64,000 bases of DNA, taken from contig NC_088299.1 in NCBI RefSeq assembly GCF_032854445.1, positions 16,797,608 through 16,861,607 of the forward strand, written 5' to 3'. Shown piece by piece: positions 18,370 through 64,000 of this stretch (the first letter of the stretch is position 1; every line of letters starts with the position of its first letter). The DNA comes from Liolophura sinensis. Lineage: Eukaryota > Mollusca > Polyplacophora > Chitonida > Chitonidae. Under the pieces are notes generated by a model. The model was given only the letters and a program-made list of their open reading frames with translations, ran no database searches and was not told where the DNA came from. The position numbers and the translations under genes were made by a program.

Positions 18370-20640
18370 ATGAGGATGTTCATGTTGATGTGACTGATTA
18401 CCGAATGTTCGTGTTCATGTGAATGATTACCGAATGTTCGTGTTCATGTGACTGATTACCGAATGTTCGTGTTCATGTGAATGATTACCAAATGTTCGCG
18501 TTCATGTGACTGATTACCGAATGTTCGTGTTCATGTAACGCTGATTCTTGGATGTTCATGTTGATGTCAGTGATTGTCAGATGTTTATATTCATGTGATT
18601 GATTACCGAATGTTCGTGTTCATGTAGCGCTGATTCTTGGATGTTCATGTTGATGTGACTGATTGTCAGATGTTTATATTCATGTGATTGATTACCGAAT
18701 GTTTGTGTTCATGTAGCGCTGATTTTTGGATGTTCATGTTGATGTGACTGAATGTCAGATGTTTATATTCATGTGATTGATTACCGAATGTTCGTGTTCA
18801 TGTAACGCTGATTCTTGGATGTTCATGTTGATGTGACTGATTGTCAGATGTTTATATTCATGTGATTGATTACCGAATGTTTGTGTTCATGTAGCGCTGA
18901 TTTTTGGATGTTCATGTTGATGTGACTGAATGTCAGATGTTTATATTCATGTGATTGATTACCGAATGTTCGTGTTCATGTAGCACTGATTCTTGGATGT
19001 TCATGTTGATGTGACTGATTGTCAGATGTTTATATTCATGTGATTGATTACCGAATGTTCGTGTTCATGTAGCGCTGATTCTTGGATGTTCATGTTGACG
19101 TGAGTGATTGTCAGATGTTTATATTCATGTGATTGATTACCGAATGTTCGTGTTCATGTAGCGCTGATTCTTGGATGTTCATGTTGACGTGAGTGATTGT
19201 CAGATGTTTATATTCATGTGATTGATTACCGAATGTTCGTGTTCATGTAGCGCTGATTCTTGGATGTTCATGTTGATGTGACTGATTGTCAGATGTTTAT
19301 ATTCATGTGATTGATTACCGAATGTTCGTGTTCATGTAGCGCTGATTCTTGGATGTTCATGTTGATGTGACTGATTGTCAGATGTTTATATTCATGGGAA
19401 TGATTACCGAATGTTTGTGTTCATGTAGCGCTGATTCTTGGATGTTCATGTTGATGTGACTGATTGTCAGATGTTTATATTCATGTGATTGATTACCGAA
19501 TGTTCGTGTTCATGTAACGCTGATTCTTGGATGTTCATGTTGATGTGACTGATTGTCAGATGTTTATATTCATGTGATTGATTACCGAATGTTTGTGTTC
19601 ATGTAGCGCTGATTTTTGGATGTTCATGTTGATGTGACTGAATGTCAGATGTTTATATTCATGTGATTGATTACCGAATGTTTGTGTTCATGTAGCGCTG
19701 ATTTTTGGATGTTCATGTTGATGTGACTGAATGTCAGATGTTTATATTCATGTGATTGATTACCGAATGTTCGTGTTTCATGTAACGCTGATTCTTGGAT
19801 GTTCATGTTGATGTGACTGATTGTCAGATGTTTATATTCATGTGATTGATTACCGAATGTTTGTGTTCATGTAGCGCTGATTTTTGGATGTTCATGTTGA
19901 TGTGACTGAATGTCAGATGTTTATATTCATGTGATTGATTACCGAATGTTCGTGTTCATGTAGCACTGATTCTTGGATGTTCATGTTGATGTGACTGATT
20001 GTCAGATGTTTATATTCATGTGATTGATTACCGAATGTTCGTGTTCATGTAGCGCTGATTCTTGGATGTTCATGTTGACGTGAGTGATTGTCAGATGTTT
20101 ATATTCATGTGATTGATTACCGAATGTTCGTGTTCATGTAGCGCTGATTCTTGGATGTTCATGTTGACGTGAGTGATTGTCAGATGTTTATATTCATGTG
20201 ATTGATTACCGAATGTTCGTGTTCATGTAGCGCTGATTCTTGGATGTTCATGTTGATGTGACTGATTGTCAGATGTTTATATTCATGTGATTGATTACCG
20301 AATGTTCGTGTTCATGTAGCGCTGATTCTTGGATGTTCATGTTGATGTGACTGATTGTCAGATGTTTATATTCATGGGAATGATTACCGAATGTTTGTGT
20401 TCATGTAGCGCTGATTCTTGGATGTTCATGTTGATGTGACTGATTGTCAGATGTTTATATTCATGGGAATGATTACCGAATGTTTGTGTTCATGTAGCGC
20501 TGATTCTTGGATGTTCATGTTGATGTGACTGATTGTCAGATGTTTATATTTATGTGATTGATTACCGAATGTTCGTGTTCATGTAGCGCTGATTCTTGGA
20601 TGTTCATGTTGATGTCACTGATTGCGGATGTTCGTGGTTT
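18370..20640. repeat. 89-bp satellite made of three 29-31-bp monomers
   Basis: Each 89-bp unit joins three related monomers (31+29+29 bp) that begin ATGTTCGTGTTCATG, ATGTTCATGTTGATG and ATGTTTATATTCATG. There are about 23 units. Diagnostic variants recur about 980 bp apart: TAGCACTGAT at 18981 and 19961, TTCATGGGAA at 19391 and 20371, and GTTGACGTGAGTG near 19094 and 20074. An 11-unit block has therefore been duplicated in tandem. Confidence 0.93.
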
Positions 20641-52841: not shown

Positions 52842-55800
52842 CTGAAAGCACAACACGGGAAATTTTGTTTAAAAATGTTGTACCGCACATTTTTTTTGGC
52901 TAAAAAATACATCGACCCGCGCACATAATTTTTAAAATTAACTTAAAATCGCCAAAATAACTGCCTCTCACTAAATATTAGCCTCACCTATACACGCGTT
53001 ACCGTTCAAAATCGGTAATAAAGTTCCTAAAATCTATAAAGCGGGTCACAAAATAATTTTATAAACTTCAGAATCAATTATTTACTTATTTATTTGATTG
53101 GCGTTTTACGTCGTACTCAAGAATATTTCACTTCTACAACAGCGGCCAGCATTATGGTGGCTGGAAACCGGGCACAGCCCGGGGAAAACCCACGACCATC
53201 CGCAGGTCGCTGGAGGACCTTCCCACATACGGCCGAAGAGGAAGCCAGCGTGAGCTTGACTTGAACTCACAGCGATCGTACCGGTGAGAAGCTACTGGGT
53301 CATTACGCTGCGCTAGCGCGCTAACCAACTGAGCCATAGAATCATTTAAACACAATGCACAGGTACGTGTCTGATTTTTAATGAAAGGCAATAAATTGAG
53401 CTCAGAATTCTTGGTAAATCTAGAGAAAATTCCACTAGCGAGTTTTGTCGAAAATGTCGCGCATGGCCAGTTTAAACTAGGGTTGATTTAGCCCTAACAT
53501 GGTGGTATAGAGTGTGTCCTGACGATTTGGATGGATGGATGTTCTTTTCATCAGTGTCGCAGACGTGCTCCCTTTTTAAAATCTAACTAAAATTCCTTAG
53601 ATTTCTTCCCACCAGGCGACTTGCAGCCGAAAATAGCAGGGTATTGTTCTTTTTTGTTATGTTGTTGTTGTTGGCTATTTCTTGTTTTTTATTTCCTCGG
53701 GGTGGGGGGGGGGGGGGAGGGCGGAGGTAGGGAAGCCACACACAAAACTCAATGTAAAGTGATTTATTTTAGATTGCCGAACTTTTGCACTTCTCTGCTT
53801 CAGAACTGCATGACGGCTGGATGACGTGTAACGCGAGGGAATACGAGATTTTATGGGACCAAAGTCAACGTGGAATTGCCATTAGGCCTATTATACGTTA
53901 GAAAGCAGCTCGGCCCTTACCATTCGACTGAAGTCAAGGCTTTCAATCCGTCTCATCCACGGTGTTGGGGAATTCTCGTATTTCTAAATCACAAAATATG
54001 AAATAAAATATTATTTTTGCTGTTTTCTTTGGTCGAGTACAAGAGTTTATATGTTTAATGCCACACTCCAGGTTGCATTACTTACTCAATGGCGGTATTT
54101 TACAGGGTGAAAGACATGTGGTCAACGAACGTAAGACTGTGCAAGCAGCCACAGAGCGTCGTTAATCGCTTGTTGTCTCGAAGGCATCATAAACAGTGAA
54201 AGCAGGATTCCACAATTTCACAGTTCATGGACGGGTGCCATAGCGACTGAAAGGCATGGACATTTAACCAATAAGCCACGGCCAAAGTTCCAGTGGTAAA
54301 CAATTTAATACATACATGGAAAAGTAATGTATATTTTCTTTAAACAAAGCTTTAAAATTAAAATATACTTGTTGCTAAAATAGATCATGTGCGGAAATTG
54401 TCACATGACTATCTGAAATGCCACTTCTACAGTACACTTCACTCACCGGCCTAATATAGTCCGGGTCTTGATTGTCGGCCAAACTAAGCTCAGTCTCATT
54501 GTCTTCCTCTGTGGGTTCGGTCAAATTCGGCAGTCGGGCAAAACTTGTCATCGGGGAGTCCAGTTTGTCACTACAAAGAATTATAACGCTGGCATCAATG
54601 GCAGATTATGGTTAGGTAAGAAGAAAGCATCGATACGTCTGGACTAAATCTATGGAAACTTCAGCCCGTGCACAAGTGGGTTACTACATTCTAGGTCTGG
54701 AATTTGTAACTGAAAGTAAAATTCGCAAAATCCGATTGTAAACTTTTTCCATATGATGTCTCGATATGCTGGGATTATTCCTGTTCGTCCTTGCTGGCCT
54801 GTTAGAATAACACCCTATAGCACTGAGGTCACGTGGTGAGTGAAGACAAACTGGAAGATTCTGTTCAATACCTGGCCAGGAGTGGTCTTGTATCATATTA
54901 TACGACATCAGAATGAATACATAAATAATCGACCGATTCCACAAAAGCAGAATTTACTTATATCATCAAAGAAATGAAGATTTCAAATCCATGTCTGGAA
55001 CATCCTACGTCGGCCTTATGTCAGCCGGATTTTCATCAACACCAATCAGTTAGATATAAATGAATCTATCCGTAAATAATATTCAGTCATAAGCTACAGT
55101 GAAGAGAGATTGGCAAACTTAAGTGACTAGGCTTCGGCTAAATTTACAGTAATCTCGTGACGTTTTGACATTGAATGTATGTATGTATGCTTTGGGTTTA
55201 ACGTCGTACTTAACAGTTTTTCAATCGTAAGACGACGAGGAGTCATCATGTGTGTACATGTAATGTGTCTTCTTATGGCAGGGCGAGTCCAAAGCGCTGC
55301 CGCCACTGAAGCACCACATTGACATTACACCCGACATGACACCCCTCCTAGTCACATTATACTGACACCGGACCAACCAGTCGTGTTTCTTTGCTCTAGT
55401 CTATCAGTGCTGAGCGCCAAGCGAGGCAGCAGCTAGCACCTTTTTTGATTGTTTGAGTGTTTGGTATGCCCCGATCTGGGTTTGATCCGGGTCTCCCGGC
55501 TCCAGGCGAACGCTCCAACTACTAGGCCACCGATGGTGCCTATTTGACATGGAGAATGTGACCCAAAACAAGAGAAACCGGTGTGCACAAACCACCTGAT
55601 CACATTTTTAATTCATTTGAGAACATTAACATCTGAACTCACGTCTTGGTTTTCTTTGTTGCTCGCCGCCTACAAAGGCAACAAGTGACTATGACCAGTA
55701 TTAAGAGGACAGCCCCAGCACTGGCAGCGCATGCTATTGCTATCACTCTCCAAGGCGGTGCGACCACTCGGACTTGTCTTGTCTCACAATGTCTGCCGCT

Positions 55801-58800
55801 GTACACGTAACTGTCGTTCTCAGGGCACCTGTCCAAAGTCAGAGAACAGCGAGAAATAGTCGCCAGTGTGGTGTATCAAACAGTGAAAGAAAAAGAACCA
55901 GCTCAAATTTGCAACTGGCTGCGATATCCCACAAGAGCGTCGATTCCATCTTGACATCGTGACTTTCGTTACGTAAATAGCTACTGTTAACAGATAGAGT
56001 GCCAGAAATGAAATCGACGAATCGACCGATAGACCTAGAGACCGACAGCTTGTAGAGCTGTTTTTCGCAAGTAGAATGTGATAAAAGAATAACTTAAAAA
56101 CATAGGTGAGATAAATATATTTATTTATTTTAAGTTTTACGCCCTCTTCGAGCATATTTTACTTATACGGCTTCGGCATTTTGGTGGAAGGAAACCAGGG
56201 GAAACTCCAAGGCCATCCGAAAGTTACTCGGAGACCTTTTCATGTTGCCATGCAGTTTGTAGGTCATGGATTCACAGCCCAAGACTAGTCCTGGCATACA
56301 ACAAATTTGACGTGACAGTTAACATTCCCAAATAATGTAATGACTCTTGTCCCTGGCCCCTGCCACAAGAAGACACATATACACACACGAAAAGACTCCT
56401 CGTCGTTATATGACTGAAAAATTGTTGAGAACAAGATACAAAAATCAAGCATACAAGGATATCAATTTGATGATTTAGCATACACACAAAAGACATGTTG
56501 TATGCTTGGGGTTTTAAGTCACCCATAGCAATTTTTCAGTCATATGACGACGAGGAGTCATTGGGTGTGTGTTCAGATACTACTCCTTCTTGTAGCAGGA
56601 TGCGTTCATACCGCCAAAGTGCTGTCTCGCCACTCAAGTATCATACTGAAAACACCAGATATTACGCCCAACCCGGTCGCAGTATACTGCATGACACCGG
56701 GACAGGAAGTCATGTTTCCATGCTCTAACCTCTCTGTGCTGAGCGCCAAGCGAGACAGTAACAAGTACCATTTTAAAGTCTTTGGTATGACCCGACCAGG
56801 GTTTGATCCCGGGTTTCGCAACTTCAAGGCGGACGCTCTACATTTGGGCCACCGAATATTCACGCACGGACCCACCGTTAGATGTTCACTGAACCGACAA
56901 AGATCTATTACAAGTTGGTCTACATGTAAACTGTAAAATATCAAATAAATTAGCGTTTATACACAATGAGTTACCTGCAGGTGGGTTTGAAATCCACAGT
57001 CGTCTGACACGTGCCATGTACGCAAGCATTCTTAGGCAAAGTACAGATCGCCTTACATGTCAAGCTTTCCCCAATATTAAATTGATAACCTCTCCAACAA
57101 GTGGCCAATCGCGTCACACCTGTGAAATGGAAAAATACGTCAAAAAAAAAAATAGGTTGCTGGAAAGATGTCATTCTCGCACTAGTGCATATAACGACGA
57201 AAAAATGTACCATGTGATGTATCACGGATATCATCGTTCACGCTAGGGCGTCTTCTTCATTACACCTCGCTTAGAGTGTGAGCAGACCAGACCGTTTTCT
57301 TCATTACACCTCGCTTAAAGTGTTAGTAGACCAGTCCGTTTTCTTAATTACATTTTCCTTAGAGTGTTAGTAAACCAGACCGTTTTCTTCATTACATTTT
57401 CCTTAGAGTGTTAGTAGACCAGGCCGTTTTCTTCATTACAACTCCCTTAGAGTGTTAGTAGCTCAGACCGTTTTCTTCATTACATTTTCCTTAGAGTGTT
57501 AGTAGGCTAGGCCGTTTTCTTCATTACACCTCGCTTAGAGCATTAGTAGACCAGGTCGTTTTCTTCATTACATTTTTCTTAGAGTGATAGTAGACCAGGT
57601 CGTTTTCTTCATACCTGGCTGAGAGAGTTAGTAGACCATTAAATAAAGTAAATGTGTGAAATTTAAATAACCATCGCTTGTGTGAATCATACTTTTACCT
57701 CTTCATCTTTTCACCTTACACTTTTAGCACCCACAAATTTTAGCACCCACAACTTGTAAAAAAAGGTGGAAACGCATCGTTATTTACTGTCTTGTAAGTC
57801 TTGTAAATATTTTGATCTTCCCTCGGAATATATATCAAACAAACTTTGATAGAAAAGCATTTGTGACTGCCATTCTTTTTTAAATCGAAAGTCAAGCGTT
57901 TATTCCTATTTGAAGGCACAAAATTTCGTAACACAGAAGCTTCCTCTTTTTTAACTTATCAGAATTATTAAACTGCAGGCATTCATGTAGCGACGTAAAT
58001 GAGAAGTGGGCGTTTTGTGGACAAGCCACATGTATTGCTGATCAGCTCAGGTCTATCTGAGGCTGTTATCCCGGCAGTTCCACGGGTGAGATCGTTTTCG
58101 TCTAAGAAAACAAGGAACACAAATGTAGGAACGAACCCACATAAAACTAGATCAACCATGCCTTGTGTCTAGTGACGAGAATTTACAGATATTTTCACTT
58201 GCTCATCTGCGTAATCTTGTCTATAGTTGGTGAAAACAGATATACACTGAAGAGGACGTAAGTCAACCTTAGAACAGATGCGTTTTTAGGGTACATCGCC
58301 TCAGCTTTATCTTGGTCAAACTGATCGTTACTGTCCCATTCTCCAGCCCTATTACATTATATTTGTTAAGTGTGTAAATACGCATTAGCCAAGCCTTTCC
58401 TTGATTAAAATGATCGTTACTGTCCCATTCTCCAGCTTTGTTACATTATATTCGTTAAGTGTGTAAACACGCATTAGCCAAGCCTTTCCTTGATTAAAAT
58501 AATCGTTACTGTCCCATTCTCCAGCTTTGTTACAATTATATCCGCTAAGTGTGTAACCACGCATTAGCCAAGCCTTACCTTGATTAAACTGTTCGTCACT
58601 GTCCCATTCTCCAGCTTTGTTACATTATATTCGTTAAGTGTGTAAACACGCATTAGCCAAGACTTTCCTTGATTAAAATGATCGTTACTGTCCCATTCTC
58701 CAGCCCTATTACATTATATTTGTTAAGTGTGTAAACACGCATTAGCCAAGCCTTTCCTTGATTAAAATGATCGTCACTGTCCCATTCTCCAGCTTTGTTA

Positions 58801-61445
58801 CATTATATTCGTTAAGTGTGTAAACACGCATTAGCCAAGCTTTTCCTTGATTAAAATGATCGTTACTGTCCCATTCTCCAGCTTTGTTACATTATATCTG
58901 CTAAATGTGTAACCACGCATTAGCCAAGCCTTACCTTGATTAAACTGTTCGTCGCTATCCTCATCTCCTAGCTCTGTTACGTTGTATCCGTTAAGTGTGG
59001 CGCCATGAAGTGAGTCCCTACAACGTCTGGAGTCATTTTTCGCAGCAGTCAAGTTCTGAACCACTTGTGTAGCACGGTACAGGTTCTTGTAGTGTACCCT
59101 GATACTGCCCTCGCTGTTATGAAAAACAAATGATACAGTGTGGGGCAGCATAGGCTGAAAAGCCATCACAGCATTGAGGCAAATTGCCTGGGTAGACCTA
59201 TTATCATTTCCTGGGTTTTTTCTAAAATCTTTTGTCACATCAAATCCAACCTGTCCATATGGACCCAGTAACAGATGTAGCGTTAAGATATATTCCTGTA
59301 CTGTTTGGAATAATCTGAGGAAATTAAAAAAAGTATATACCTTGTGTGCACTAAATAGTGGCCCTTAGCAAGGAATTATGTGCCCATAATCCAGATCGTA
59401 CACATCACCGCTTTCACACTGAAATTTGCCCATGTTTTGCTAATGGCATACATTTTCAGCACAATGAAGACTCAGGTCCAAGCTGTGTTAACCGTTATTG
59501 TCTTAGAATGAATGAGTAATATGTTACAAGTTTGCTCACGAAACGTCAACGCCTAATGGAACAATATACTGCAGGGCTTGAACCAAATTACTTCAGGTGG
59601 AAATCGTTCGACATCTAAATATACTCTGCAGGTGTACAACGTCTCATTGAATAAATTATTTAATGTCTGAATATGTTTTAACTCCACACTGGCGATATTT
59701 CAGCCATATCCAATAAACAATTGATTATATAGCATAGACCCAAGTTTTTATAGGCGGGAAATGTTCTCTATTCATTCCTATTTGTTCATACCAAGGTTTA
59801 CTTCTGGAGGGTAAAACTTAAACCCTCAGATGCTCCTTTCCAAACTGACCCCATATAGACGGAAAATTGCTCCCCAATACAGAGCTCGCTTTATATCTTA
59901 TACAGCTGTTCCATTCCTTCAAGCACTAATGTGGGCACCATACTGGAGGTTTCGACCCAGTTTCGTTATCTTAAAAGCTGTGCTTTTAATACCTGCACCG
60001 TCATTCAAGATCGCGGTGATTGGTTCATAAACCGCTTTTGGATGCTTAGGGTTAATCAAATTGTCATAAAATATTGCATAAGGGATTGTCAGGCTTCAGG
60101 CATTGTCTCAGATAAGCACTTGCCGCGTAATTTACGTTATGCTTACGTCAGATTGTCGATCTCCACCCGCAGAAATCCAAAACTGTTGTTATAATGTTCT
60201 GTCAACTGGAATTTCAAACAAACATACAAATTAAACTTCGTCAGCACTAGGAGAGCGTGGTGACGGACCACTGCCTACCTGCTGCGGACCAATGCACATT
60301 TGTGACGGTTAATAACCCATTTGTGCATGACTACACCCCGTTTGAGACGGACCACATCCAATTAGTAAAAGATCACATTTGTGATGAACAACAACAGTGT
60401 GAAGAATAACACCCATATGTGAGGGATCACTGCCATTTGGGACGGAAAACACCCAACTGGAACGGACAAGAGAGCATCTGGGACGGACAATACCCATTTA
60501 GGGCGGACAACAAACCATTTGGAATGGACAATACCAATTTGTGGCGAACCACATCCATTTGTAACGGGAAAAATCCATTTGTGACGAAAAACACCCATTT
60601 GTGAAGGACCACGCCCATTTGGGACGGACAACACCCATTTGGAACGGACAACTGATCATTTGGGACGGACAACTCCCATCTGGCACGGACAACAGACCAT
60701 TTGGGACAGACAACTCCCATTTGGCACGGACAACAGATCATTTGGGACGGACAACACCCATTTGTGAGGAACCACACCCATTTGGGGCGGACAACACCCA
60801 TTTGGGACGGACAATACCCATTTAAAATAGACAACAGACCATTTGATACGGACAACACCCATTTGTGAAGGATCACTCCCATTTAGAACGGAGAACACCC
60901 AATTTGAAAAAGACAACACCCATTTGGGAAGGACAACACGCCCTACTGCAGGACAATTATAATCTCACCTTAAGCTATTACACAAGAGAGATAAATGCTA
61001 ACGTGTGCACATTAACATATAAACATAAATTGCAATATAAATTGCCAAAGAATATTTTTAATTGCCTCCCTCAAACAAAAACAACCCGCACCAACCAACT
61101 TGTGGTCTACGGTTTGCTTTGTCTCTGATGATTTCACAGCCAAGAATGTAGAAGTGCGGGTAAATATCTGTATCCTCTCTGATTCTGACCACATTGTACT
61201 CTACTTTTTTTTCAAGAACAAAATTTTTCACTGCTCTGAACTGCATTATGTTAAAGTTTGTCTAAAGTTCTTTTCCACTGCAGATCCCATCTATAGCGGA
61301 ATTAAATTAAACAGGCTTCTACTTACCTCTTCTCTCACACTGGCACAGAAATCATCCCTGCGTGTACTGTTGTTTTCAATCTTTGAAAAGTTTGCATTCA
61401 GCACAAGACTGGTAATGATCGCAATGGTCTGATTCACCAAATTTC
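52707..61445 (-). CDS. SEA-like/EGF/single-pass membrane protein gene, 3' six exons
   Basis: Six minus-strand exons (61445-61327, 59187-58935, 57119-56975, 55828-55643, 54570-54447, 52841-52707) join with GT-AG introns and phases 0, 1, 2, 2 and 0 to give 319 continuous codons, open at the N terminus (incoming phase 1). Residues about 10-75 resemble a SEA domain, with the autocleavage-type EGSIRVHY (G66-S67). Residues 149-186 are a six-cysteine EGF-like domain (C149, C156, C161, C171, C173, C186; spacing 6-4-9-1-12). Residues 200-224 are one transmembrane helix followed by RRRATKKTK. The cytoplasmic tail ends NTYESLQQD and has two YxxL motifs. N-glycosylation sequons are common before the EGF. 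SEA-EGF-TM order is that of membrane mucins and related type I surface glycoproteins; a cell-surface adhesion or signalling role is inference. A Ty3/gypsy remnant lies beyond the first visible exon, so the signal peptide and 5' exons are probably outside the window. Confidence 0.88.
53081..53338 (-). mobile_element. SINE family A, full length, in a gene intron
   Basis: The best copy in the window. On the minus strand the head is TGGCTCAGTTGGTTAGCGCG (A box), with GTGAGTTCAAGTCAAGCTCA as the B-box region. The core is TGCCCGGTTTCCAGCC with GTAGAAGTGAAATATTCTTG, and an A/T-rich tail ends at 53081. It lies in the intron between exons e and f in the same orientation as the gene. Confidence 0.85.
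54447..54570 (-). CDS. SEA-EGF gene exon e (cytoplasmic tail 1)
   Basis: Acceptor TCTTTGTAG, donor GGCCG|GTGAGT. It completes a Thr codon and gives 41 residues, beginning DKLDSPMTSFARLPNLTEP and ending NQDPDYIRP. It is acidic and Ser/Thr-rich, with one tyrosine. Confidence 0.87.
55173..55543 (-). mobile_element. SINE family B, full length, in a gene intron
   Basis: Minus-strand head GGTGGCCTAGTAGTTGGAGC (A-box region) and GGATCAAACCCAGATCGG (B box). The core is GTCAGTATAATGTGACTAGG, and the tail is GACGTTAAACCCAAAGCATA followed by CATACATACAT. It lies between exons d and e, same orientation as the gene. Confidence 0.85.
55643..55828 (-). CDS. SEA-EGF gene exon d (EGF end, transmembrane helix)
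   Basis: Acceptor ACTTTGGACAG, donor AAGAC|GTGAGT, phase 2 in and 2 out. It completes the EGF (CPENDSYVYSGRHCE), then encodes a short stalk, the helix VIAIACAASAGAVLLILVIV and the stop-transfer segment CRRRATKKTK. The cysteines at the inner helix border (TCCLC) may be acylated. Confidence 0.9.
56117..56275 (-). mobile_element. SINE family A, 3' part, in a gene intron
   Basis: A TATTTATTTATTTTAAG tail is followed by the reverse complement of the core (CATATTTTACTTATACGGCT, then GGTGGAAGGAAACCAGGGGA). The head is absent. Between exons c and d. Confidence 0.7.
56494..56858 (-). mobile_element. SINE family B, in a gene intron
   Basis: Reverse complement of the family B tail (TGCTTGGGGTTTTAAGTCAC), core (ACGACGAGGAGTCATTGGGT, GCTGAGCGCCAAGCGAGACA) and tRNA-like head (CCGACCAGGGTTTGATCCCG, GGCGGACGCTCTACATTTGG). 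Between exons c and d. Confidence 0.82.
56975..57119 (-). CDS. SEA-EGF gene exon c (EGF-like, first part)
   Basis: Acceptor CATTTCACAG, donor TGCAG|GTAACT, phase 1 in and 2 out. It encodes CWRGYQFNIG, then the EGF cysteines in AICTLPKNACVHGTCQTT, and ends ...PTC plus a split Arg codon. Confidence 0.88.
57246..57640. repeat. 44-bp minisatellite, about 9 copies, in intron b-c
   Basis: The unit is ACCGTTTTCTTCATTACATT plus TTCCTTAGAGTGTTAGTAGACCAG; some copies have ACACCTCGC instead of ACATTTTCC. It begins about 125 bp from the acceptor of exon c. Confidence 0.9.
58300..58934 (-). repeat. 89-bp array derived from exon b end plus splice donor
   Basis: Seven tandem intronic units follow the authentic exon end (eight in all). 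The conserved TTGATT anchors lie at 58401, 58490, 58580, 58669, 58758 and 58847, with the authentic one at 58936; the outermost unit near 58310 is diverged. Each unit holds a degraded copy of the last ~65 bp of exon b (TATAATGTAACAAAGCTGGA, then TTTAATCAAGG) and the start of the intron (GGCTTGGCTAATGCG). In most units the donor GGTAAGG has become GGAAAGG. Only the unit at 58580 keeps GGTAAGG, exactly four units (356 bp) from the real donor. Confidence 0.9.
58935..59187 (-). CDS. SEA-EGF gene exon b
   Basis: Acceptor GGTCTACCCAG, donor CAAG|GTAAGG, phase 0 in and 1 out, 84 codons. It contains HTVSFVFHNSEGSIRVHYKN, the second half of the SEA-like domain with a Gly-Ser cleavage-type site. An acidic stretch, ELGDEDSDEQF, follows near the exon end. 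The last part of this exon plus its donor is tandemly amplified in the following intron. Confidence 0.85.
60380..60950. repeat. 21-bp minisatellite, about 27 copies, in intron a-b
   Basis: The unit is CATTTGGGACGGACAACACC plus C; many copies carry AACAGACCATTTGG or TGTGAAGGACCAC variants. Short overlapping ORFs (CCPSQMGVVRPKW-like) are repeat products. Confidence 0.93.
61327..61445 (-). CDS. SEA-EGF gene exon a (first visible)
   Basis: Acceptor TTTTGACACAG, donor GAG|GTAAGT. It encodes 39 residues after a split Gly codon, starting NLVNQTIAIITSLVLNANFS and ending FCASVREE. It is probably the first half of the SEA-like fold, with three N-glycosylation sequons. Confidence 0.8.
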
Positions 61446-61755: not shown

Positions 61756-61933
61756 TGTAATCTCTAAGTTTTAGGCCGTATAGATACCCCCTACTGATTA
61801 TGCAACATGAACTACACCGCCTCAATGGTAACAAGCGAGGAGTCCGCCATCATGTAAAGAAGCCTGAATACAGCCGTCAAGTGTGTCACCAAACAAACTG
61901 TTTTTATTCATCTATGCACAAATAACTAAGACA
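61756..61933 (+). mobile_element. Candidate 5' LTR of a Ty3/gypsy-type element
   Basis: The block begins TGTAATC and ends TAAGACA (TG...CA), directly before TCTGGCGACGAGGTGA at about 61940. That sequence resembles the primer-binding region of Mag/SURL-type gypsy elements. No partner LTR is in the window, so the borders are tentative. Confidence 0.4.
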
Positions 61934-64000
61934 TTGTATCTGGCGACGAGGTGAACGGCCAACGGAAATCCAAACGATGGCTCAAGCGCTGAACATACTG
62001 GCAATTCCTCCGTTCCAAGCGGACACTGATCAGTCGTCGCCCTCCACAGGATGGAAAAAGTGCAACTGGTATCAACATCGACGAACAGAAACGCGCGCTG
62101 TTGACTCAAAGACACTGGTGATGACTTTGCAACCGCTTTAGAAAAGCTTGATGAATATTTCTTACCGAAGAAGAATGTGCGCTACGAACGGTACATGTTC
62201 AAGGACGCACATCAGCAGTTCGTCACGCGACTCCGGTCCCTTACAATAACTTGTGAATTCCCGGAACCGGCCGACTCCATCGCCGTTCAAGTGGTGGACA
62301 AGTCCAGATCCACCAATCTCAAACGCAGACTGTTGAGAGAATCTGATATGACATTAGATAAAATTCTTGACATTGACCGAGCCACAGAAACATCTGAACT
62401 CCAAAGTCAGAAAATGGAAGTAAACTCAGAACCAGCCCCATCACTGTTAACAACCTCGTAAACAAGCCAGGCAAATTTAGGCACAAAAGCTAAAAGCATA
62501 CACCTTTTCAAAAACGCAAAAACAAACCACACAGAAATAATGAGTGTAGTAATTGTGGAGGTGTTTGGCCACATAGAAATACAAGATGTCCAGCTACTTG
62601 TAAAACACATGGGAACTGCGGTAAACTCAACCACTTTGGTAGCGTGTGTCGTAGCTCACAAAATCGGACCAAAAAGCCCGTTAATCAAATACACGCAGAA
62701 GTTACCCACACTGATTCATCATCAGGAGATGAGTATGTATTTACCGTTTGTGACAAAAGTAGCAGTGTAAAGTTTCCCACTAAACAGCCCAAAATTGCAG
62801 TCAAAATAGCAGGCAGGTCCCATTCTTAGTTGATAGTAGCGCGTCAGTGAACGTGTTAGATAAATCATGTTACATTGAAATAAGGAAACACAAAAAAGTC
62901 TCATTCGGCAAGCGAAAAACCAAAAATATTTGTCTATTGTTCCAAAATCTCTCTGCCTGTTATGGGTATTTTTGAGGCAAACATAGAAATATCAGAGAAA
63001 ACGTGCTCAGCTGTTTTTATGTGGTGAATCAAAATTCAGGTTCCTTGTTGGATTTTGAGACATCTACACAATTGGAACTTATCAAGCTCCCCACAGTGGC
63101 AGACAGTTTACGCCTCAATCTACAATCAGTGATAAAGCAGGGTGAATTCTTCAAAGAGAACAAAATAGTTTCTTACCACAACCTCTGCCATCAGTTAATA
63201 AACTCCCGACAGTGAAGAAAAATAATCCCGCATCAGAACAACCTCTGTCATTAACTGACAAGCTGATATCTGAATTTTTAGACATAATTGATGGTGTGGG
63301 CAAATTAAAGGACTACTAATTCAAAATACATGTAGATCCGTCAGTCAAACCTATTGCTAAACCACCACGACCCATACCATTCACATGAGAAAGCAGGTAG
63401 AATTTGAATCTAGAAAAAGTAGACATCATAGAGAAGGTTGATGGTCCTACACCATGGGTACCGCCAGTAGTGGTTGTCCCGAAGAAGGACAAATCAAGTG
63501 TGCGTGTCTGTGTCGCTATGAGGTCCCCAAATACTGCTGTCTTTCGTGAACGTCATCCAACGACCACCAAGGACGAAATCATACATGATTTGAACGGAGC
63601 GATAGTATTCTTCAAACTCGACATGCAACAAAGGTATCGAACTACACTCCTGACAACATTTGCCACACACAAAGGCCTGCGGCGATACAAGCACCTGATG
63701 TTTGTTTTGTCGTCAGCGTCAGAAATTTTCCAGGACGTGATTAAACAGACACTAAGTGACATACCGGGTGTGTAAAACCTGCCAGACGACATCATCGACC
63801 GAACACAAACTGAACATGACAAGTCGCTGCCAATGGTTTTCCAGAGACTTAGAGACAAAAGCCTTACACTCAGCCTGGAAAAATGCGTTTTTAACAAACC
63901 CAGTCTGGAGTTCTTCAGATTTGTATTTTCCAAGCAAAGAATATCCCCAGACACAGCAAAAGTGGACGCAGTAAAAAAACGCTCCAATTCCAGAGAATGC
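61934..64000 (+). pseudogene. Degraded Ty3/gypsy retrotransposon, gag-PR-RT remains
   Basis: Order along the plus strand: gag N-terminus from ATG 61977, with an internal deletion; gag remainder at 62177-62460; a nucleocapsid zinc knuckle at 62545-62589 (C-x2-C-x5-H-x4-C) and a second at 62617-62649 that has lost its first cysteine; an aspartic-protease motif near 62830 where DSGA has become DSSA in a shifted frame; and a reverse transcriptase at 63404-63990. The RT contains TPWVPPVVVVPKK, a KLDM block where the first catalytic aspartate lies, and LPDDIID, where a stop just upstream disrupts the FxDD-type active site. Several frameshifts, stops and deletions make it non-functional. It runs off the window and is antisense to the SEA-EGF gene. 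Confidence 0.85.

Follow-up and report, generated by a model that had tools for sequence, protein, structure and literature searches.

In the chiton Liolophura sinensis, the 3' end of a predicted coding exon and its 5' splice donor form the first unit of a tandem array that runs on into the following intron, where one of the decoy copies carries an intact donor 356 nt from the real one. On balance, we consider it probable that a minisatellite grew at this exon boundary, that the donor was lost once in a founder copy, that a four-unit duplication followed, and that the exon's own donor is still the main one. The source role of the exon, the order of steps and the consequences for splicing are what we infer from the sequence of one genome, which was published as Liolophura japonica (PMC11068029, in the part consulted), the name having since been corrected to L. 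sinensis (PMC12441733). In the open-licence literature no title on the Liolophura locus was found beyond the genome paper and its correction, which does not prove the locus unpublished.

Repeat analysis with TRF gave a period of 89 over positions 58311-58999 (7.7 copies, 90% matches, score 1078), and a period of 357 over the same interval scored higher (1241, 94% matches). Donor-anchored matching resolved eight units of ~89 bp on the minus strand, with the +1 position of the donor at 58934 (exon), 58845, 58756, 58667, 58578, 58488 and 58399 and, for the last, partial unit, at 58310. A unit combines ~65 nt from the end of the exon with ~24 nt from the intron. The first, U1, is the end of the predicted exon b with its donor, and the seven others are intronic (58910-58300). 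A slash marks the splice junction throughout.

58911..58999, minus strand: U1, exon b's terminal ~65 nt followed by ~24 nt of the intron, from TRF and donor-anchored units
58933..58934, minus strand: GT of exon b's own donor, AAG/GTAAGG, within U1, from the donor alignment
58822..58910, minus strand: U2, GA at the donor position, from donor-anchored units
58733..58821, minus strand: U3, GA at the donor position, from donor-anchored units
58644..58732, minus strand: U4, GA at the donor position, from donor-anchored units
58555..58643, minus strand: U5, intact decoy donor with its +1 G at 58578
58465..58554, minus strand: U6, 90 nt, GA at the donor position
58376..58464, minus strand: U7, GA at the donor position
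58300..58375, minus strand: U8, partial with a degenerate end, AT at donor position 58310

The base of the exon copy at alignment column 45 is absent from all seven intronic units, U6 has one extra base elsewhere, and the first ~54 nt of U8 are identical to U4. An array of ~89-bp copies of the exon end, its donor and the first intronic bases, as described in the initial annotation, is thereby confirmed. Its anatomy stands, with the gene placed on the minus strand and the +1 G of the decoy at 58578 rather than 58580.

The same annotation had asked whether the units match exon b any better than random sequence, and the answer favoured the array. The exon tail scored 63 against the core consensus, the maximum of 2,000 dinucleotide shuffles being 24. 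Likewise, none of 42,116 other 69-base segments of the window, i.e., the whole stretch of 64,000 bases analyzed (both strands, every third base, array excluded), reached 63, their maximum also being 24. In the genome assembly (609,464,459 bases, 632 contigs), at least seven matches to the unit were found, all seven of them within this array, genome-wide unit counts being lower bounds. The 89-bp array is a minisatellite at the single locus found in the assembly. The label of satellite, applied to it earlier, was too strong for eight units at one locus: a satellite DNA family has its unit in numerous locations or in extended arrays, and the seven matches, a lower bound, all lie here.

The host gene is predicted from splice consensus, open frames and a third-position signal, and would comprise the following exons.

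61327..61445, minus strand: candidate upstream exon a, 119 nt, with donor GAG/GTAAGT at 61326, from splice consensus and open frame only
58935..59314, minus strand: exon b as predicted, 380 nt with an open frame, ending in ...TTTAATCAAG in phase 1
56975..57119, minus strand: predicted next exon, 145 nt, acceptor CACAG/GTGTGACG, cysteine-rich and phase-compatible with exon b
55643..55828, minus strand: predicted exon after that, 186 nt, in which the cysteine-rich module ends, with a transmembrane-like hydrophobic stretch

Across its donor junction, exon b reads TTTAATCAAG/GTAAGG, and the exons at 57119-56975 and 55828-55643 carry on its frame with standard splice signals. Two acceptors fit the start of exon b: that at 59314 is strong, and that at 59250 (316 nt) is phase-compatible with exon a. 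The link between exons a and b is uncertain, and intervening exons are possible. With donor scores based on assumed base frequencies, the exon a donor reached 11.5 and that of the cysteine-rich exon 8.5.

Exon b looks coding, since most of the substitutions seen in its copy alone are at third codon positions. In a test selected once the alignment had been seen, with few sites and without alignment columns one to six, which lie outside the array, six of eight private U1 substitutions relative to the state common to the seven other units were at third positions (binomial p 0.020). The second of the two counts, which alone of them omits columns 36-46, a tract alignable otherwise, gave four of four (binomial p 0.012). 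When U1 was compared with each of the seven units, again without columns 36-46 and in comparisons that are not independent, differences were most frequent at third positions. This pattern fits a coding sequence that may have been kept by selection beside free-running copies.

By eye, the exon at 56975..57119 is EGF-like and the stretch within 55643..55828 transmembrane-like. Pfam searches gave no family above cut-off for the host protein, EGF falling below it at E 1.6 and transmembrane families appearing only below it. A SEA-like impression of an exon, also gained by eye, was abandoned as unsupported, Pfam SEA having no match in the host exon. A genome search with PF01390 did not match the locus (13 candidates scored, none past cut-off), a weak test, with 0 of 14 control genomes positive. 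The AlphaFold2 model of exon b, run without relatives, was unreliable (pLDDT 41), and a Foldseek comparison of this model with the PDB (332 matches at E<=10, none at E<=0.001) was uninformative at that pLDDT. Whole-genome searches with exon a and with exon b each returned only the query itself at E<=1; the cysteine-rich exon returned itself and two further hits (E 0.70 and E 0.91). Paralogues could therefore not serve to verify the exon end independently. Two copies of one dispersed repeat, recognized by eye, lie near the last exons of the gene at 55180-55540 and 56500-56860.

The donor dinucleotide is GT in U1 and U5, GA in U2, U3, U4, U6 and U7, and AT in U8. GT is missing from six of the seven decoys (five GA, one AT), in line with the reported change of GGTAAGG to GGAAAGG in most of them, of which the loss of GT holds; the exact form GGAAAGG occurs in three of seven only (U3, U6, U7), the others reading GGAAAAG (U2), GGAAAGT (U4), GATAAAG (U8) and GGTAAGG (U5). 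Alignment column 61 is T in all five GA units and G in U1, U5 and U8. Because the five GA units share this linked T, a single loss of GT followed by copying is most likely. A T at donor +2 is retained at both edges of the array (U1, U8), which makes T the likely older state at that position.

Among the 105 possible pairings of units, that of units four apart had the highest identity (0.924; runner-up 0.9125). By unit offset, identity was 0.924 for four, 0.893 for one and two, and 0.882 for three. Six variants are shared by exactly two units each; in five of them these units lie four apart, and in the sixth they are U2 and U8. The proposal that a four-unit block was duplicated and carried a good donor with it is supported by this register. 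GA is present in both blocks (U2-U4; U6 and U7), therefore GT was lost before the block was duplicated, unless GA spread later by conversion; as far as one genome tells, and barring such conversion, this answers the question of order raised in the initial annotation. Gene conversion could mimic parts of this history. Moreover, the 5' half of U5 matches U3 and not U1, and together with the two-unit variant joining U2 and U8 this makes any placing of the exchange points tentative.

Loss of the decoy donors had been read as a possible trace of selection for correct splicing. Had selection broken the donors individually, the absence of GT from nearly all decoys would be accounted for, and use of the intact one would indeed break the frame; however, a single linked haplotype is common to the five GA units, two losses (the GA founder and the AT of U8) suffice, and the intact donor of U5 persists. 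The column-61 T marks one copied founder change, so that repeated donor loss gives no basis for selection, and we regard individual destruction as very unlikely. Selection could have favoured amplification of the dead-donor copy. The reverse direction, in which an intronic minisatellite came first and one of its units was exonised as the end of exon b, gaining its donor by mutation, is unlikely too, if somewhat less so. The intron holds seven of the eight units, and the sequence of one genome cannot fix direction. Yet among full units the one in the exon diverges most, with 79-88% identity to U2-U7, which are 89-98% identical to one another, and it bears the coding signature; such divergence would follow if the exon takes no part in the homogenisation of the array. 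GT also looks older than GA, given the T at +2 in both edge units, and the exon donor leads in phase to the cysteine-rich exon.

We therefore favour growth out of the exon boundary. An ~89-bp segment spanning the donor of coding exon b together with the exon's 3' end would have been tandemly duplicated to give a local minisatellite. In an early intronic copy the donor would have been lost a single time (GT to GA), along with a linked G-to-T change, and the donor-less copy would have multiplied by amplification or conversion. Later, unequal exchange would have duplicated a four-unit block including the exon's own donor, placing the intact donor of U5 356 nt into the intron, while the exon copy was presumably kept under coding constraint. 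The intact decoy is most likely a by-product of this local minisatellite straddling the exon boundary.

U5 is identical to U1 across 19 exonic and 29 intronic nt (48 nt in total), so that one decoy with an intact donor, exactly four units (356 bp) from the real one, is present as first described. Both donors score 11.2, tied at the top among the 105 GTs of the intron (next 8.1), and in the 64-kb window, both strands taken together, this value is reached at only five sites, among them U1, U5 and the donor of exon a. The tie at the top score marks the decoy as a strong site. Its use would lengthen exon b by 356 nt to 736 nt (380 + 356) and shift the frame, with the following consequence.

58831..58833, minus strand: earliest in-frame stop on reading exon b through its own donor, from frame reading

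The stop at 58833-58831, predicted in the initial annotation at about 58831 along with the added 356 bp and the frameshift, lies 252 nt upstream of the end of the extended exon. Nonsense-mediated decay is expected from a stop in such a position, and an mRNA spliced at U5 would be a target for it. Regulated use of the U5 donor, as an unproductive, stop-containing extension tuning gene expression, would draw on exactly these features, namely a donor indistinguishable from the exon's own over the shared stretch, joint best in the intron, and a stop well ahead of the extended exon end. Against this, the extended exon would measure 736 nt and the donor score is built on assumed base frequencies, and we give such regulation little chance. 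A bolder idea is equally doubtful, namely that the two donors, identical over 48 nt and 356 nt apart, compete, that alleles differing in array length toggle the stop-containing extension, and that minisatellite turnover acts as a mutable splicing dial. Rather, we expect that the exon's own donor is mainly used and that U5 provides at most a minor, frame-breaking alternative.

Copy number variation between individuals is typical of minisatellites, and among those that carry donors the repeat unit of human IFI6 is far shorter than 89 bp. Donor-bearing minisatellites are already known from IFI6, in which the array supplies several splice donors and two downstream units are reported as used (1995; cited in PMC4526556, in the part consulted). 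As in IFI6, where downstream units can act as donors, the chiton units carry donor sequence: U1 and U5 read AAG/GTAAGG and the other six units have dead forms. Unlike in that part of the IFI6 account, the chiton units are 89 bp long, six of seven extra donors are dead and the sole intact copy is frame-breaking. Tandem duplication of AGGT-containing segments can lead to intron gain, and fission-yeast genes with multiple 24-bp duplicates have been described (PMC4974935, in part). The chiton array likewise consists of tandem copies of an exon stretch with AGGT (AAGGTAAGG in U1 and U5). In contrast to the route outlined there, the predicted chiton intron ends at acceptor 57120/57119 beyond the array and no copy provides an acceptor. 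Since in the predicted gene model the intron is not bounded by the GT of one copy and the AG of another, its acceptor lying outside the array, that route does not apply here. In DOK7 intron 4, competing 5' splice sites 11 nt apart, steered by SRSF1, yield a frame-shifted isoform (PMC5585400, excerpts). The predicted chiton exon b similarly has two donors, one choice of which shifts the frame, but these are 356 nt apart and were seemingly made by block duplication. For the intronic minisatellites of earthworm metallothionein, the portion consulted describes no copied splice site (PMC12783039).

The chiton array can be read as a record of a minisatellite growing out of an exon boundary, in which a donor was apparently lost once and amplified dead before an intact donor was brought in by block duplication. 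Array turnover near exon ends can thus relocate live splice signals, and the intact decoy could mislead the splicing machinery. With two identical donors, the locus offers a testable case for the choice of this machinery between equal sites. The case concerns a single gene in repeat-rich surroundings, and the role of the decoy in splicing is putative.

Tandem arrays are frequent in this stretch: 20 arrays of at least 100 bp, tallied from TRF output merged by hand, cover 13,344 of 64,000 bases (20.9% of the window). If arrays ignored exons, about one in five exon boundaries would be expected to fall in an array; at this coverage, an array across one exon boundary is no great surprise. The intron with the donor array also contains a second minisatellite at 57245-57638 (44/88 bp, ~9 copies of 44; TRF). 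Another period-89 array, with 25.4 copies and also a 29-bp period, occupies 18374-20632, its unit being by eye unlike that of the donor array. Upstream of the gene, at ~61926-64000 on the plus strand, broken open frames appear by eye to be gag/pol-like pieces of an LTR retroelement.
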